From the NCBI GenBank assembly GCA_014138725.1, contig JACJID010000010.1:124001-188000 (forward strand): DNA of 64,000 nucleotides, read 5' to 3'. The first letter of the stretch is position 1. Every line of letters starts with the position of its first letter. The position numbers and the translations under genes were made by a program. Shown in pieces: positions 34,074 through 58,015 of this stretch. Source of the stretch: Kutzneria viridogrisea. Its GTDB lineage: Bacteria; Actinomycetota; Actinomycetes; Mycobacteriales; Pseudonocardiaceae. Under the pieces are notes generated by a model. It was given only the letters and a program-made list of their open reading frames with translations, had not been told where the DNA came from and did no database searches.

Positions 34074-34200
34074 CCTATTTCCTCGCGGGGGGCAAAGCGA
34101 GTCCCGGTGATCAGTGACTCGACTCACACCTGGTCCCCCTCGCGGCGGCTTCCGCCCAGCTCACGACTCCACCCCGTGATCACCGCCACCGATCCGCAAC

Positions 34201-34292
34201 ACGCCGACACGGCGTACCGCAAGCGCCGACACGCGCTGTCAACCCCGCGTGTCGGCGCTTCCCGTGCGGTGTGTCGGCACTTCCCGTAGGCG
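34201..34292. repeat. Inverted cluster of 22-bp repeats between sufR and mptB
   Basis: Two units in reverse orientation (cores CCGACAC ending at 34210 and 34232) face two forward units (cores GTGTCGGC at 34249 and 34271), with a 22-base period within each pair. The halves can fold into a stem of about 32 pairs (about 26 matched), loop about ten bases. Same family as 41155-41259, 54165-54252 and 55336-55511. Confidence 0.8.
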
Positions 34293-40537: not shown

Positions 40538-40600
40538 GAGTCCCGCTGAGCCGCTGACGAGTCTCGTCCTGGGGCGGCCGAGTCCCGCCCAGCGGGCAGC
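40538..40600 (+). repeat. Three exact-period 21-bp repeats filling the ctaA/GbsR gap
   Basis: Three tandem units start at 40538, 40559 and 40580, each beginning GAGTCCCGC or GAGTCTCGT. They fill the space between the two convergent stop codons almost completely. Same family as 41271-41354 and most of 54253-55330. Confidence 0.8.
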
Positions 40601-41154: not shown

Positions 41155-41354
41155 GTGTCGGCGCTTCCCGCACGGTGTGTCGGCGCTCGGAGGGCGGTTT
41201 CCCAATTCGTGGGATTTCGTACCGAAACCGCCGACACGCGGCACCGGAAGCGCCGACACGCGCTGGGGTTGAGCGGGGTTCGCGCGCGGCTGAGCGGGAC
41301 TCGCGTGCGGGTCAGCGGGGTTCGCGCGCGGCTGGGCGGGACTCGCCGGTGGGC
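41155..41354. repeat. Mixed 22-bp and 21-bp repeat cluster with inverted orientation
   Basis: Forward 22-bp units start at 41155 and 41177. After a 40-base centre, reverse 22-bp units end at 41237 and 41259. Four reverse 21-bp units follow at 41271, 41292, 41313 and 41334 (cores GCGGGGTTCG or GCGGGACTCG). The last two lie in the coding end of the exporter gene and encode its final residues. Confidence 0.8.
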
Positions 41355-42742
41355 TGGCGCAGGGTGGCGGCGGCGTCCACGTCGCGCACGGTCAGCGCGG
41401 CCGCCGCGGCCAGCAGTGCCAGGGCCGCGGCGGTGAAGAACCCCGCGTGGTAGGCGATCAGCCCCGAGTCGCTGTCGGGTACCGGCCCGAACACGGTGAC
41501 GACCGCGCTGAGCAGGGCCACGCCGATGGCCGACCCGAGCTGGCGGACCGTGTTGAACAGGGCGGCGGAGCGGCCCAGCTGCTCGACGGGCACGGCGGCG
41601 AAGGCGGCGGTCTGCGTGGGCAGGAAGACCCAGCCCATGAACACGCCGACCCCGAACATCATCGCGGCGATCAGCCACTGCTCGGTGCCCAGGTCCACGG
41701 TGCCGAGCAGGCTGATCGTCAGCCCGACACCGGTCAGGCCGAACAGCTGCAACCGGCGCGGGCCGACCCTGGGGTAGATCCGGCCGACCACCTGCACCGA
41801 GCAGAGCACGCCCAGGGCCTCGGGGAAGGTGGTCAACCCGGAGGACAGGGCGGAGGCGCCCCGCACGTTCTGCAGGAACAGCGGCATCAGGTACAGGGTG
41901 CCGAGGAACCCCGCGGTGGCCAGGAAGATGACCAGCGAGTTGGACCGGAACAGCCTGCTGCCGAACAACCTCAGCCGCAGCATGGGCTCGGCGGAGCGCA
42001 GTTCCACCAGCACGAGCAGGACCAGCAGCGCCAGGCCGCCCAGGCCGGTGGCGAGCACGTCCGGGGAGCTCCAGCCGCTGATTGGGCCCTGGCTCAGCGC
42101 GTACATGCTGGCGCCCAGCCCGAGGCCGGTCAGCACGAAACCCGGCAGGTCGAACCGACCGGCTTCCGGCTCGCGGCGCTCGGTGAGCATGAACGCGCCG
42201 AAGGCGAAGGCCAGCACGCCCAGCGGGATGTTGATGAAGAAGACCCAGCGCCAGGACAGCCGGTCGGCGAGCAGGCCGCCGATCACCGGACCGCTGGCCG
42301 GGGCGAAGATCGTGGGCAGGGAGAGCAGCCGGGAGGCGCGGGCCCGCTCCGCCGGCGGGAAGGCGCGCAGCATCATCGCCAGGCCGACCGGGGTGAGCAG
42401 CCCGCCGCCCGCGCCCTGCACCACCCGGAACAGCACCAGCTGCGGCAGGTTGGCGGCCAGCCCGCACAGCACCGAGGCGCCGACGAACACCGCCAGCGCC
42501 ACCAGGAAGACCCGCTTGCTGCCCCAGCGGTCACCGAACCAGCCCGAGGCGGGCAGGAACACGGCCAGGCTCAGCAGGTAGCCGATGACCACCGAGTGTG
42601 CGTCCACCGGGGCCACCCCGAACTCCGCGGCCATCTTGGACAGGGTCACGTTGACGACCGTCGAGTCCAGGATTGTCATGAACAGCGCGGACACGTAGAC
42701 CACGCCGACAACGACCTTGGGGCTCACCCTGCCCGACACCAC
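41312..42742 (-). CDS. DHA2-family (EmrB/QacA) multidrug efflux MFS transporter
   Basis: A 476-residue proton-driven exporter with 14 predicted helices. TM1 has the DHA2 motif ILDSTVVNVTLSKMA, motif A is GWFGDRWGSKRVFLVALAVF, and motif C appears as PASGPVIGGLLADRLSWRWV. The GTG start has GGGGGA upstream. The last dozen residues (GESRPAAREPR) and the stop codon lie in the 21-bp repeat array, so the C-terminus seems to have been rewritten by repeat spread. The GbsR-like gene downstream on the same strand may regulate it. Confidence 0.9.
   Translation of the reverse strand: MVSGRVSPKVVVGVVYVSALFMTILDSTVVNVTLSKMAAEFGVAPVDAHSVVIGYLLSLAVFLPASGWFGDRWGSKRVFLVALAVFVGASVLCGLAANLPQLVLFRVVQGAGGGLLTPVGLAMMLRAFPPAERARASRLLSLPTIFAPASGPVIGGLLADRLSWRWVFFINIPLGVLAFAFGAFMLTERREPEAGRFDLPGFVLTGLGLGASMYALSQGPISGWSSPDVLATGLGGLALLVLLVLVELRSAEPMLRLRLFGSRLFRSNSLVIFLATAGFLGTLYLMPLFLQNVRGASALSSGLTTFPEALGVLCSVQVVGRIYPRVGPRRLQLFGLTGVGLTISLLGTVDLGTEQWLIAAMMFGVGVFMGWVFLPTQTAAFAAVPVEQLGRSAALFNTVRQLGSAIGVALLSAVVTVFGPVPDSDSGLIAYHAGFFTAAALALLAAAAALTVRDVDAAATLRQPTGESRPAAREPR

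Positions 42743-52928: not shown

Positions 52929-52932
<4 letters not shown>
51583..52932 (-). CDS. Persulfide dioxygenase-like MBL-fold protein fused to two rhodanese domains
   Basis: A 449-residue protein. The N-terminal metallo-beta-lactamase domain (1-240) has THVHADFLSGH, HTPGHTPESI and the motif GDTLFVGDVGRPDL, as in ETHE1 and Blh persulfide dioxygenases that turn persulfide into sulfite. Two rhodanese domains follow. The first (about 255-345) lacks an active Cys (IVLVGLPGTRRE). The second (about 355-449) has it in LVYCASGNRSS. GTG 52932 overlaps the SQR stop. The fusion would pass sulfane sulfur between sites. Mycothiol persulfide is the likely carrier. Confidence 0.9.
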
Positions 52933-54116
<1,184 letters not shown>

Positions 54117-54122
<6 letters not shown>

Positions 54123-54139
54123 ACATTTAAAGTACGGAC
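54117..54139. promoter_or_regulatory. Operator-like palindrome over the -10 and start codon of sqr
   Basis: GTCC-N-TAC at the left and GTA-N-GGAC at the right frame an AT-rich centre (18 of 23 positions symmetric). On the minus strand the same bases contain TACTTT, six bases before ATG 54122. A repressor bound here would block a leaderless start directly. An ArsR- or CsoR-like persulfide sensor would fit, but none is adjacent. Confidence 0.5.
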
Positions 54140-54164
54140 ATTTGTGGCCCGACTCAACCCGTGC

Positions 54165-55511
54165 GTGTCGGACGCTCCGGAACCGCGTGTCGGCGCTGGC
54201 CGTACGGTGTGTTGGCGCTTCCGGTACGGCGTGTCGGCGCTGGCCGTACGGCGAGTCCCGCTCAGGAGCACGCGAGTCCCGCCGAGCCGACGACGAGTCC
54301 CGCTCAGCGGGGTCGGAGCTCGGAGCGGGTTCAGTCGGCAGGACTCGCGTGCTGCGGAACGGGACTCGTTGTGCTGGTCAGCCGGACCGCAACGCCCCGA
54401 TGGGCGGACCCGCGCACGGCAGGTCGGGACTCGCGTGGCCCAGAACGGGAGTCGGCCGCCGCCTGTGGGATTCGCGCCCAGTACGCCGGGACTCGGGGCA
54501 CGGCGGGCGGGACTCGCGCGCCCGTGGACGGGACTCACACCCCAGTGACCGGGACTCGGGCCCACGTGGGCGGGGCTCGCGCCCCGATGGGCGGGACTCG
54601 CACGCCCTGGGGGGCGGGACTCGGCCCGAGGGGCGGGAGTCACACGCCCCAGAACGAGACTCCCGCCCTGGTGAACGGGACTCGGGGCACAGCTAGCGGG
54701 ACTCACGGCCCCGTGGACGGGACTCCTGCTCCCATGGGCGGGACCCATGCGCCGGTGAACGGGACTCACGCCCCGGCGGACGGGACTCACACGCCGGTGA
54801 ACGGGACTCGCGCGCCCGTGGACGGAACTCGCACGCCGGTGAACGGGACTCGGGCCCATGTGAGCGGATTCGGGCACGGCGGGCGGGAGTCACATACCCA
54901 AGAACGGGACTCGCGCCCCAGTGACCAGGACTCCCGCGCCGGTCGACGGGACTCACACCCCAGTAACCGGGACTCGCGCCCCCGTGGACGGAACTCGCAC
55001 GCCGGTTGACGGGCTCCTCCTCCCATGGGCGGGACTCGCGCGCCGGTTGACGGGACTCCTGCCCCCATATGGACGGGACTCGCGCGCCAGTGAACGGGAC
55101 TCGCGCGCCGATGGGCGGGACTCGGGCGCCGGTGGGCGGGAGTCACGCGCCCCAGAACGGGACTCGCGCCCCAGCGGGCGGGCCCCACGCGCCGCCGCGA
55201 ACGGAACTCCCGCCCCAGTGAACGGGACTCGCGCGCCAGTGAACGGGACTCGCGTGCCCCAGAACGGGACTCGTCCACCTCAGCACGGGACTCACGCGCC
55301 GGTCGACGGGACTCACACCCCCGCGAGCGCAACTCACCGCACCGGAACGTCCAACACGCGCGACCGGAACGTCCGACACGCGCCACACGAAACGCCGACA
55401 CGCGCCACCGGAACGTCCGACACGCGCCACCGGAACGTCCGACACGCGCCACCGGAACGTCCGACACGCGGCACGCGAAGCGCCGACACGCGGCACCGGG
55501 AGCGCCGACAC
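54165..55511. repeat. 1.35-kb array of phased 22-bp and 21-bp repeats with an orientation switch
   Basis: Left arm, forward: four 22-bp units starting 54165, 54187, 54209 and 54231 (core GTGTCGGCGCT), then three 21-bp units at 54253, 54274 and 54295 (core GAGTCCCGC). After about 54320 the units are reversed: roughly 45-48 diverged 21-bp units (core GCGGGACTCGCG or AACGGGACTC) to about 55335, then eight phased 22-bp units from 55336 to 55511 (core CGTCCGACAC). The 21-bp period is a multiple of three, which keeps long false frames open on both strands. It fills the whole gap between sqr and padR, and I see no gene in it. Confidence 0.85.
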
Positions 55512-55526
55512 GCGGGGGCGCTGGGG

Positions 55527-56051
55527 TTAGTCGGGGCGGGTGGCGATGCGGGTCGCGGCCTCCTGGCTCCAGCCGAGCATGGCGTCGGTCATGCGCAGGG
55601 TGAGGTCCAGCGCCAGGTTGTGCGAGCCGTGCGGCGGGGACATGCGGGCACTGCGCTCCATCACCGCCACCAGGCCCGCCCGCTGCTCGGTCCACACCTG
55701 GACCTCCCGCTCCAGCACGGCGAGCGCGTCGTCACGGCAGAGCACCGTGGACAGCAGGAACGCCCGCAGGTAGATCTCACTGCGCATGGTGCGGTCCGGC
55801 TCCACCTCGACCAGCCAGCGACGCAGCTCCTCGCGGCCGAACTCGGTGATGGCATACGTGCGCCGCCCGCGGGCGCCCTCCTCGACCACCTCGACGTGCC
55901 CGTCGGCGGCGAGCCTGGACAGCTCGGGGTAGAGCTGGTGGCTGCGGGCGTTCCAGATGCCGCGCAGCGTGTACTGGAAGTGCTTGGCCAGCTCGTAGCC
56001 GCTGCTCGGCGAGAAGTTGAGCAGCCCGAGCAGTGCGTGCCGCAGCGACAT
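55527..56051 (-). CDS. PadR-family transcriptional regulator
   Basis: A 174-residue winged-helix repressor. Signature MSLRHALLGLLNFSPSSGYE, HQLYPELSRLAADGHVEVVE and GRRTYAITEFGREELRRWL cover the DNA-binding part, followed by the C-terminal PadR dimer helices. ATG 56051 is favoured by AGGAGG four bases upstream and shares one base with the stop of the ABC exporter (TGATG). It probably senses the exported compound and controls the exporter. Its stop lies 15 bases from the repeat array. Confidence 0.9.
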   Translation of the reverse strand: MSLRHALLGLLNFSPSSGYELAKHFQYTLRGIWNARSHQLYPELSRLAADGHVEVVEEGARGRRTYAITEFGREELRRWLVEVEPDRTMRSEIYLRAFLLSTVLCRDDALAVLEREVQVWTEQRAGLVAVMERSARMSPPHGSHNLALDLTLRMTDAMLGWSQEAATRIATRPD

Positions 56052-58015
56052 CACGCCTCCTTCGCGGCGGGCGCGTCCAGGTACGCCGCGGCCTGCAGGG
56101 TGAACAGGTGCGCGTACTGGCCGTCGACCCGCATCAGCTCGGCGTGCGTGCCGGACTCGACGAGCTGGCCGTCCTGGAGGAACAGGATCCGGTCGGCCTG
56201 GCGCACGGTGGAGAACCGGTGCGAGATGTACAGCGTCGTGCGACCGTGCGAGAGCCTGCGCAGCCGCGCGAACAGGTCGTACTCGGCCTGGGCGTCCAGC
56301 GCGGAGGTCGGCTCGTCCAGCACCAGCAGCGGGGCGTCACGCATGAAGGCCCTGCTGAGCACCACCTTCTGCCACTCCCCGCCGGACAGGTTGGCGCCCT
56401 CGTTGAACCACCGGCCCAGCGGGGTGTCGTAGCCCCGTGACAGCCCGGTGAGCAGCTCGTCCGCGCCACCGGCGGCCGCCGCCGACTCCACGCGGGGCCG
56501 GTCCTCGACCCGGCCGAGGTCGCCGAGGCCGATGTTCTCCGCGGCGGTGGCCTGGTAGGTCACGTAGTCCTGGAACATGGCGCTGATGTGCAGGCGCAGG
56601 TCATCGGGGTCCAGCTCGCGCAGGTCAACGCCGTCGAGCAGGATGCGGCCCCCGGTCGGGTCGTACAACCGGCACAGCAGCTTGAACAGCGTGGACTTGC
56701 CCGCCCCGTTGCGGCCCACGACGGCGGCGGTCTCGCCGGGCCGGATCTCGAAGCTGACGTCGGACAGCGCGGGCCGCTCGCTGCCCTGGTAGCTGAAGGA
56801 GACGTGCTCGAAGACCACGTGCCCGCGCACCGGCTTGGGCAGCTCGCGGGGCCGCTCGGGGCGGGTGATCGTCGGCTCGGTGGCCAGCAGCTTGTACAGG
56901 TTGTCCAGGTACAGGTTGTTCTCGTACATGCCGGTGGCCCCGCTGAACAGCGCGGACACCGAGCCCTGGACCGAGCTCGTGGCCTGGGTGAACAGCAGCA
57001 GGTCGCCCAGGGTGAGCCTGCCGTAGACGGCCTCCAGCGCGATGTAGAGGTAGGTCAGCGAGCCGGTCAGCGTGGTGAGCATGCCCCAGCCGGTGCTGCG
57101 CAGGGTGCGCTCGGTGGACAGCTTGCGCTGCCGCGCGAAGTAGACCTTGCCCAGCTGGCGGAACCGGTCCACGAAGTAGGGCCCGAGCCCGAAGAGCTTG
57201 ACCTCCTTGGCGTCCTCGTCGGTGGTGACCAGCCTGCCGAGGTAGTCCATGCGGCGGCGGATCGGCGAGGTCCACAGCGCGAACCGGTAGGTGCGCAGCC
57301 CGTACCGGGACTCGGCGATGAACGCCGGGATCGGCGCGAGCACCGCGACCGCGGCCAGCAGCGGGCTGATCGTCAGCAGCAGCGCGATCATGCTGCTGAA
57401 GGTGATCAGCGTGCGGATCAGCCCGAACGCCCCGTTCATCATGGACATCGGGCGGCTGGGCGCCTCCTGCTGGGCCTGCCGCAGCAGGTCGTAGGAGGCG
57501 GAGTCCTCGAAGAAGGCCAGGTCCAGCTTGCTGGCGTGGTCCATCACCTTCAACTGGATGGTGTGCGACACCCTGTCCTGCAACAACCCCTGGCTGACCT
57601 GGGACACGGTGTTCATCACGGTGGTCACGGCGGTCAGCAGCAGCTGGAGCACCGCCACCGCGATGATCATCTGCACGGTGTCCAGGGTGAACGGGCCCAG
57701 CACCGCCTGATCGGGCAGGTGCTGGGTGTGCACGAGTACCGCGTGGGTGACCGAGTCCAGCAGCAGCTTGGCCATGTAGGCCGTGGCCGCCGGGCTCAGG
57801 CCGCTGATCACGGTGGCCAGCGCGAGCCAGGTGGTCAGCCAGGGCCCGGCCTCCCAGGACAGCCGCACCACCCGGGGCAGCCCGCGCAGCGCCGCCGAGA
57901 CCGACTGCCGCAGCCGGGCCCACCGCGAGCGCAAGTCGTTGTCCTGCTTGGGTTCCTCCGGCTCCGGGATGTCCACCGAGCCGGTGAGCCCACTGTCCGG
58001 CACGGTGCTGATCAT
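56051..58015 (-). CDS. ABC exporter, fused membrane and ATPase domains
   Basis: A 654-residue half-transporter. Six membrane helices lie in about 55-340. The ATPase domain is at about 385-630: Walker A VVGRNGAGKSTLFKLLCR, signature ANLSGGEWQKVVLSRA, Walker B PLLVLDEPTSALDAQAEYDL, and the switch His in TLYISHRFSTVR. The SGGEW form of the signature is typical of a actinobacterial peptide and natural-product exporter group. It is coupled to padR. The start is uncertain: ATG 58015 or a GTG at 58045, neither with an ideal ribosome site. Confidence 0.9.
   Translation of the reverse strand: MISTVPDSGLTGSVDIPEPEEPKQDNDLRSRWARLRQSVSAALRGLPRVVRLSWEAGPWLTTWLALATVISGLSPAATAYMAKLLLDSVTHAVLVHTQHLPDQAVLGPFTLDTVQMIIAVAVLQLLLTAVTTVMNTVSQVSQGLLQDRVSHTIQLKVMDHASKLDLAFFEDSASYDLLRQAQQEAPSRPMSMMNGAFGLIRTLITFSSMIALLLTISPLLAAVAVLAPIPAFIAESRYGLRTYRFALWTSPIRRRMDYLGRLVTTDEDAKEVKLFGLGPYFVDRFRQLGKVYFARQRKLSTERTLRSTGWGMLTTLTGSLTYLYIALEAVYGRLTLGDLLLFTQATSSVQGSVSALFSGATGMYENNLYLDNLYKLLATEPTITRPERPRELPKPVRGHVVFEHVSFSYQGSERPALSDVSFEIRPGETAAVVGRNGAGKSTLFKLLCRLYDPTGGRILLDGVDLRELDPDDLRLHISAMFQDYVTYQATAAENIGLGDLGRVEDRPRVESAAAAGGADELLTGLSRGYDTPLGRWFNEGANLSGGEWQKVVLSRAFMRDAPLLVLDEPTSALDAQAEYDLFARLRRLSHGRTTLYISHRFSTVRQADRILFLQDGQLVESGTHAELMRVDGQYAHLFTLQAAAYLDAPAAKEA

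Follow-up and report, generated by a model that had tools for sequence, protein, structure and literature searches.

What kind of DNA fills the gap between the sqr and padR genes of Kutzneria viridogrisea? In the window, which is the whole 64,000-nucleotide stretch analysed here, this gap (54123-55526) is filled by repeat units of two periods, 22 bp and 21 bp, arranged in forward and reversed halves. Our analysis points, with a probability of roughly one half, to a REPIN-like family of gene 3' ends that spread as mirrored pairs, was enlarged in tandem and shares the slot of bidirectional terminators, a reading in which any part in termination, protein recognition and mobility is inferred.

Layout of the array and of smaller loci in the window

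The array stands between two genes on the minus strand, namely an FAD oxidoreductase (52929-54122), before whose start codon it begins by 42 bp, and a PadR-family regulator (55527-56054), behind whose stop codon it ends by 15 bp. The name sqr for the former was given in the sequence-only reading; the domain found is Pyr_redox_2, and the best named relatives of the protein (68%) are from Pseudonocardia and Actinokineospora, and also from Streptomyces and Actinomadura. Four forward 22-bp units with a GTGTCGG core (54165-54252, plus strand; cores at 54165, 54187, 54209 and 54231) are followed by three forward 21-bp units with a GAGTCCCG core (54253-54315, plus strand; cores at 54253, 54274 and 54295), by a switch from forward to reversed halves that measures 10 bp in the layout scan (54316-54325), by a long run of reversed 21-bp units (54326-55335, minus strand) and by eight reversed 22-bp units (55336-55511, minus strand), whose cores at 55351-55505 all keep exact 22-bp steps (8/8). 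The reversed 21-bp run has about 48 slots, with 39 units scored and 41 cores at no more than one mismatch (54339 to 55307). Because the layout scan leaves gaps equal to about 9 units beside the 39 scored, the earlier count of 45-48 reversed 21-units is a fair one. TRF recovered the forward part as period 22 at 54163-54257 (4.3 copies) and period 21 at 54251-54308 (2.8 copies), and the reversed part as period 21 at 54487-55314 (39.4 copies, 67% matches) and period 22 at 55340-55514 (8.0 copies, 89% matches), and it also reported a higher period of 107 bp. The design that had been read from the letters alone, from the four forward 22-bp units to the eight reversed ones, is therefore confirmed by TRF, by the core positions and by the layout scan.

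The same holds for the claim that the array contains no gene, as a home-made codon-based gene finder calls none in 54123-55526. The window gave no match to Rfam 15 at the gathering score and nothing in a tRNA scan, and a plasmid collection returned no match.

The recurrence of both families at 34.2, 40.5 and 41.2 kb proved real, at intergenic or gene-end sites. At 41155-41259, a small mirrored element is composed of two forward 22-bp units, a 17-bp centre (41199-41215, TTCCCAATTCGTGGGAT) and two reversed units. Four reversed 21-type cores at 21-bp steps (41261-41344, minus strand; two scored in the layout scan) come next and overlap the 3' end of an MFS gene (41312-42742). Three forward 21-bp units (40538-40600, plus strand) fill a convergent gap of 76 bp, while two reversed and then two forward 22-type cores (34189-34292; the layout scan scored three of these cores) lie in a divergent gap, and a lone 21-type unit was scored by the layout scan at 34099-34119 (plus strand).

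Mirrored halves were seen again at further loci. Forward-reverse 22-elements number 23 across the close-up sample described below, extra stretches and pattern-picked loci, and 16 of the 23 have a centre of exactly 17 bp. In an earlier list of 20 mirrored 22-elements, 14 had the 17-bp centre, and nine of these 14 read TCCCA-N5-TGGGA by eye. This motif has six matches in 1.344 Mb, five of them within 70 bp of a 22-unit, and none in the reversed control. The long array of the window follows the mirrored 22 plan with 21-units inside. Where both unit directions occur in a convergent gap (14 gaps, by eye), forward units come first in 10 and reversed units in three, and one gap is mixed.

Dispersal, spacing and position at gene ends

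The repeat arrays are not a product of chance. Throughout the 10.25-Mb genome, exact tandem core pairs number 1,040 for GAGTCCCG at a 21-bp step and 235 for GTGTCGG at a 22-bp step, vs zero pairs of either family in the reversed control. Confinement to this locus, which the sequence-only reading had named as an argument against a dispersed non-coding system, is therefore not what is observed. For a closer view, 1.264 Mb of the 10.25 Mb were sampled, consisting of the window and 60 spaced 20-kb stretches of contigs C1-C4. Weight matrices trained on this sample matched 379 21-units (7 control hits) and 97 22-units (1 control hit), with the consensus GAGTCCCGCYCWGNGGNGCGC for the 21-unit and GTGTCGGCGCTTCCGGTACGGC for the 22-unit. 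The 22-units are sparse in the C1 sample, with 4 in 20 stretches, and number 49 in the 20 stretches of C2. The core GAGTCCCG also occurs within an apparent tRNA T-arm (L288, right part; by eye), probably by chance.

Spacing is strict in both families. Among exact-core distances of 20-23 bp in the 21 family, 155 of 163 equal 21 bp, and 34 of 36 distances below 30 bp in the 22 family equal 22 bp; the 21-bp frame is broken by occasional 20-, 22- or 23-bp steps. Rows of a single orientation are common in the layout scan, and uninterrupted rows reach up to 24 units.

Adjacent units share an identity of only 0.70 in the 21 family and 0.74 in the 22 family, and the values between arrays are 0.66 and 0.68. 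Identity in the 21 family does not decay over lag, and neighbours do not exceed distant units of the same array in mean identity. Near-identical pairs (at least 95%) in the 22 family have a frequency of 0.106 at lag 1 within arrays vs 0.002 between arrays, and those in the 21 family of 0.010 at lag 1 and 0.051 at lags of at least 12 vs 0.001 between arrays. These commoner near-identical pairs inside arrays, together with the 107-bp TRF period, indicate some within-array duplication, partly in blocks. The evidence on the unit-wise copying suggested earlier is mixed, with near-identical pairs enriched within arrays but no gain in the mean identity of neighbours. The rows appear to be old or homogenised, with a spacing that is far better preserved than the sequence.

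Gene calls in the sample were made with the same home-made finder (1,126 genes, 87% coding). Of the 137 convergent gaps in the 1.26-Mb sample, 24 contain 21-units and 8 contain 22-units; the 472 tandem gaps include 17 with 21-units and 8 with 22-units, and among the 178 divergent gaps none has 21-units and one has 22-units. For the 21 family, the Fisher test of convergent vs divergent gaps gives 6e-10. Altogether 357 of the 379 21-units lie between genes; the other 22 are inside 16 called genes, in eight of which they sit at the very 3' end, while the other eight genes have one unit apiece, except one gene with two. Among the 97 22-units, eight are in genes and five at stretch edges. Units also supply gene ends, as at L137:6503-6578, where they provide the last codons of a gene ending ...ERESRSAEDESRSGDDESR, and at 41302-41344 of the window.

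Within the gaps, the arrays are set directly behind stop codons. In 18 tandem gaps, a median of 8.5 bp separates the array edge from the stop upstream and a median of 89 bp from the start that follows, with two outliers at 82 and 625 bp, and none of 200 random placements gave an edge-to-stop median as small. Of 30 convergent gaps, 22 have the nearer stop no more than 20 bp away. Orientation toward the gene is a bias only. Counted per unit, with units of one array not being independent, the ratios of sense to antisense relative to the nearest gene end are 42:3 in convergent and 22:14 in tandem gaps for the 22 family, and 147:71 and 110:29 for the 21 family. Counted per array in tandem gaps, the 21 family has 11 sense and 6 antisense, and the 22 family 4 to 2 with 2 ties. 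The genome-wide pairs, the spacing, the gap counts and the edge-to-stop distances all support the earlier view of dispersed, phased and apparently non-coding arrays at gene ends.

Folding, relatives and occupants of syntenic gaps

The arms of the 22-elements do not covary. Arm identity was 0.680 in mirror pairs (n = 42) vs 0.689 in random pairs, and the inner arm pair beyond the core gave 0.472 for own and 0.551 for cross pairs (n = 23). A palindrome family that occupies such slots in the same genome served as positive control and gave 0.798 for own arms and 0.609 for cross pairs (108 strand hits, selected through the motif of a single arm, with scoring restricted to the sequence outside it and intact palindromes counting twice), an identity of at least 0.9 being reached in 49 of 108 own pairs vs 6.1%; in copies picked as hairpins, the values (n = 21; own 0.963, cross 0.815) are biased by that selection. 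Given that the palindrome family covaries and the 22-elements do not, the conserved feature does not appear to be the folded strand. Mutual information within the 21-unit revealed no stem covariation; the 21 consensus is able to fold, with stem positions 14 and 17 near random. Better folding than in shuffles was seen for a pair of small mirrored elements and for the big array at its mirrored start (z -4.15 to -5.45). Tandem-only rows gave z values of -2.39 to +2.47 in six tests, most of them about as expected of shuffled DNA. For the 120 nt behind stops in convergent gaps, the mean z was -2.26 with mirrored 22-elements (n = 12), -1.48 with 22-units lacking a mirror (n = 4), -2.81 with 21-arrays (n = 40) and -2.63 in unoccupied gaps (n = 132), so that convergent gaps with repeats do not show more structure than those without. 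In tandem gaps, it was -0.21 with 21-arrays (n = 13) and -1.45 in unoccupied gaps (n = 247), so that these stretches are less structured with arrays. An RNA hairpin as the conserved feature of the units is unsupported by mutual information, arm identity and folding against shuffles.

If kept as duplex rather than folded DNA, the units could be bound by a sequence-specific protein, spaced regularly behind genes, with the effect of blocking or insulating transcription or of organising the chromosome. Such a phased binding array would fit the strict spacing at a neighbour identity of about 70-74%, the lack of covariation in arms where the palindrome control covaries, and the common one-orientation rows. 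However, few indels could also be explained by a low indel rate or homogenisation, two exact periods of 21 and 22 bp are odd for helical phase alone, and a candidate binding protein was not found. Moreover, exact 22-family pairs occur in only one of the seven genus genomes, which would demand a lineage-specific or optional protein, and we consider this explanation rather unlikely.

A sister-type unit pattern, searched in the seven genomes of the genus with one mismatch allowed, was found 203, 107, 35, 25, 17 and 0 times in the six sisters and 68 times in K. viridogrisea; the control never exceeded 1 per direction. Mirrored elements in the sister loci read have the unit at their ends, and many of them lie between stop codons; mirrored 21-unit pairs show a recurring spacing of 41 bp in at least five pairs of one sister (G002) and of 47 bp in at least three of another (G001). 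All seven strict unit matches in 26 sister stretches fall into 4 of 71 convergent gaps, with none in the 281 other gaps and none in genes. The strict 21-bp pair pattern is present in 12 of 390 family genomes, K. viridogrisea included, and in 5 of 46 genera (control 0), and was found in none of 395 other genomes drawn from the phylum. A looser 21 pattern matched 17 of 150 genomes, two of them outside the family; in one of these two, as well as in the congener G001, a 7-bp repeat is behind the match. Arrays with a 7-bp step (GAGTCCC repeated) were noted at L068 (G001:C14) and L062 (G095:C36), and 21 equals 3 x 7, perhaps by coincidence. The 22 pattern occurs in 25 of 150 genomes, with more than four matches only in K. 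viridogrisea (235) and in G077 (34) and G044 (21) of genus g39, controls reaching up to 2. At 24 loci of other genera, the central match lies in a convergent gap in 9, a tandem gap in 12, a divergent gap in 2 and a gene in 1. As to the locus itself, no orthologous array was found in about 300 nt behind padR in four sisters (G001, G003, G005 and G006), and 80 loci around named sqr relatives contained none of three unit-pair patterns.

Strong variation in copy number among congeners (0 to 203 for one unit pattern) would be expected of a selfish miniature or foldback mobile element with no host use, which would be seen behind stops only because insertions elsewhere were lost. A mirrored build, in which units form the inverted ends and spacing recurs among the sisters, and the 0 of 178 divergent gaps with 21-units would agree with it, yet neutral insertion alone does not predict edges within about 8 bp of stops, a search for the Y1/RAYT class linked no transposase to it, and several syntenic gaps hold units instead of, not beside, the sister hairpin. 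This explanation seems to us as doubtful as the binding array.

The syntenic comparison covered two 100-kb regions (only 20 kb each in G002) and five sisters, at a hairpin threshold score of at least 10. In all, 20 convergent gaps lie between neighbours shared with one or more of the five sisters; 14 of them are longer than 30 bp here, and six contain at least two units. At these six, the sisters have hairpins in 13 of 19 cases and units in 1 of 19 (among the 13), and the median length is 182 here and 58 in sisters; at the eight gaps without units here, sister hairpins occur in 9 of 25. The roles are reversed at one gap, with a hairpin of score 26 here, at least two unit cores in three sisters and one in a fourth. 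Downstream of secA, a compact AACGGGGC...GCCCCGTT-type hairpin is present in four of five sisters, and the gap here extends over 1,354 bp with 16 22-unit and 21 21-unit hits, another hairpin being retained beside the array. In the gap 2973-3061 of L129, a hairpin is conserved in all six species, with no units. Across the convergent gaps of the sample, hairpins outside units occur in 10 of 32 unit-bearing and 48 of 90 unit-free gaps (p 0.04), indicating that the exclusion is partial. With a looser core pattern, syntenic gaps of the divergent or tandem type also have single matches, and one such match is present in four sisters. The syntenic gaps hold different occupants instead of a clean empty site.

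Such alternation might be taken further, in that hairpin terminators at many converging pairs could have been swapped in a bacterial lineage for phased duplex sites where a DNA-bound protein, in place of an RNA hairpin, marks or blocks the transcript end, a possibility that we hold to be somewhat less probable again than the two preceding ones. Last and very improbable is an array encoding a repetitive or degenerate protein. Long open frames do span it and units do enter the ends of some called genes, but codon statistics call no gene in it, each 22-bp copy shifts the frame, the 20-, 22- and 23-bp steps break the 21-bp frame and 357 of 379 21-units in the sample are intergenic, so that a coding array is rejected.

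Relation to known repeat systems

That no named element has this design, as the sequence-only reading put it, was too strong a statement, because REP and REPIN sequences share both the placement and the mirrored pairing. In the excerpts of PMC3733652 used here, REP sequences are described as dispersed and extragenic, mainly between converging or unidirectional genes, and in two diagrammed species as close to 3' ends (less than 20 bp for converging genes); CGTC REPs are said there to be without a dedicated transposase. REPINs, in the excerpts of PMC3116915, are mirrored pairs that form the spreading unit, with some tandem clusters. As far as these partial sources go, the 21/22 units resemble REP and REPIN in their position at gene 3' ends, their rarity in promoters and the mirrored pair as dispersed unit, and differ in a consensus that by eye lacks a GTAG or CGTC end tag. 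They also seem unlike REP and REPIN in that the unit does not look like a kept hairpin, and differ in that uninterrupted rows extend to as many as 24 units and two families are nested in one locus. The ACG subtype of the 22-unit does contain CGTC when read on the opposite strand, internally and not as an end tag. A search for the Y1/RAYT transposase (PF01797) gave no match in the K. viridogrisea genome and one marginal match in one of the seven genus genomes, and a RAYT-borne REP is rejected for this genome on that ground. Given REP- and REPIN-like placement and pairing, yet no Y1/RAYT match, no tag and no apparent kept hairpin, the units are best regarded as a REPIN-like family of their own.

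In this reading, the basic element consists of one or more mirrored pairs of units, 21 or 22 bp long, that flank a short centre. Its site is directly behind stops, above all in convergent gaps, a position held at other loci or in other species by a bidirectional hairpin terminator or another palindromic repeat. The elements could have spread as mirrored pairs by the action of some enzyme and would be retained only where the gene or promoter stays uncut, and later growth by recombination may have produced the long phased rows, the array of the window probably being a much enlarged member of this dispersed gene-end family. The most likely job, if any, would be to end or insulate transcription between neighbours. 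In favour of this reading stand the dispersal, the placement, the mirrored pairs here and in sisters and the varying occupants of syntenic gaps. Against it weigh repeat-bearing gaps that show no surplus of structure behind stops, tandem-only rows that mostly fold as shuffled DNA would, an only partial replacement of hairpins, looser-core matches outside convergent gaps, the negative Y1/RAYT search and an orientation that is no more than a bias.

MITE and foldback designs have inverted ends, and the arms of foldback elements are built of short tandem units. Inverted ends are likewise found in the 21/22 elements, for which a search limited to Y1/RAYT gave no partner transposase. Among prokaryotic satellites, transposed non-coding families of long repeats are reported in PMC6749651 from Leptospira interrogans and Methanocella conradii only. 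Such satellites are similar as tandem arrays of non-coding units in intergenic DNA, whereas the 21/22 units have many dispersed copies and a mirrored design. With bidirectional hairpin terminators and 3'-end stem-loops, as far as described in part of PMC1590033, the units share the slot between converging genes. Either type can be present at the same syntenic gap in different species; unlike hairpin terminators, the 22-elements have arms without covariation, and the tandem rows are mostly without excess folding. In Kutzneria albida, according to the excerpt of PMC4210621, two genomic islands are flanked by inverted repeats, with lengths of 432 bp (69% identity) and 323 bp (70%), and as a guess these could be such arrays. 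None of the titles and abstracts covered, all from open-licence PMC papers, was found to describe these units.

What sets this system apart is the presence of nested mirrored families of two fixed periods in terminator slots, alternating with hairpins between congeners and without a REP-transposase match. Should the units prove to be duplex binding sites, they would offer a testable example of terminators being turned over through protein-bound repeats; were they purely selfish, such spread and growth of satellite-like DNA would still be unusual for a bacterium.

Two further observations concern palindromic elements at gene ends. In a sister species (L309, G002), a hairpin element is present three times in tandem within a convergent gap of 189 bp that is orthologous to the gap 13230-13435 of L120, indicating that tandem growth at gene ends is not restricted to 21/22 units. 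A second dispersed family is made up of near-perfect 54-bp palindromes (TGCCATGAAAGTGCCGTTCC...) in convergent gaps, among others at L312:5921-5979, in the L135 gap from 3207 and in the L128 gap from 15249; their arms covary, and the family looks like a mobile or templated terminator family.
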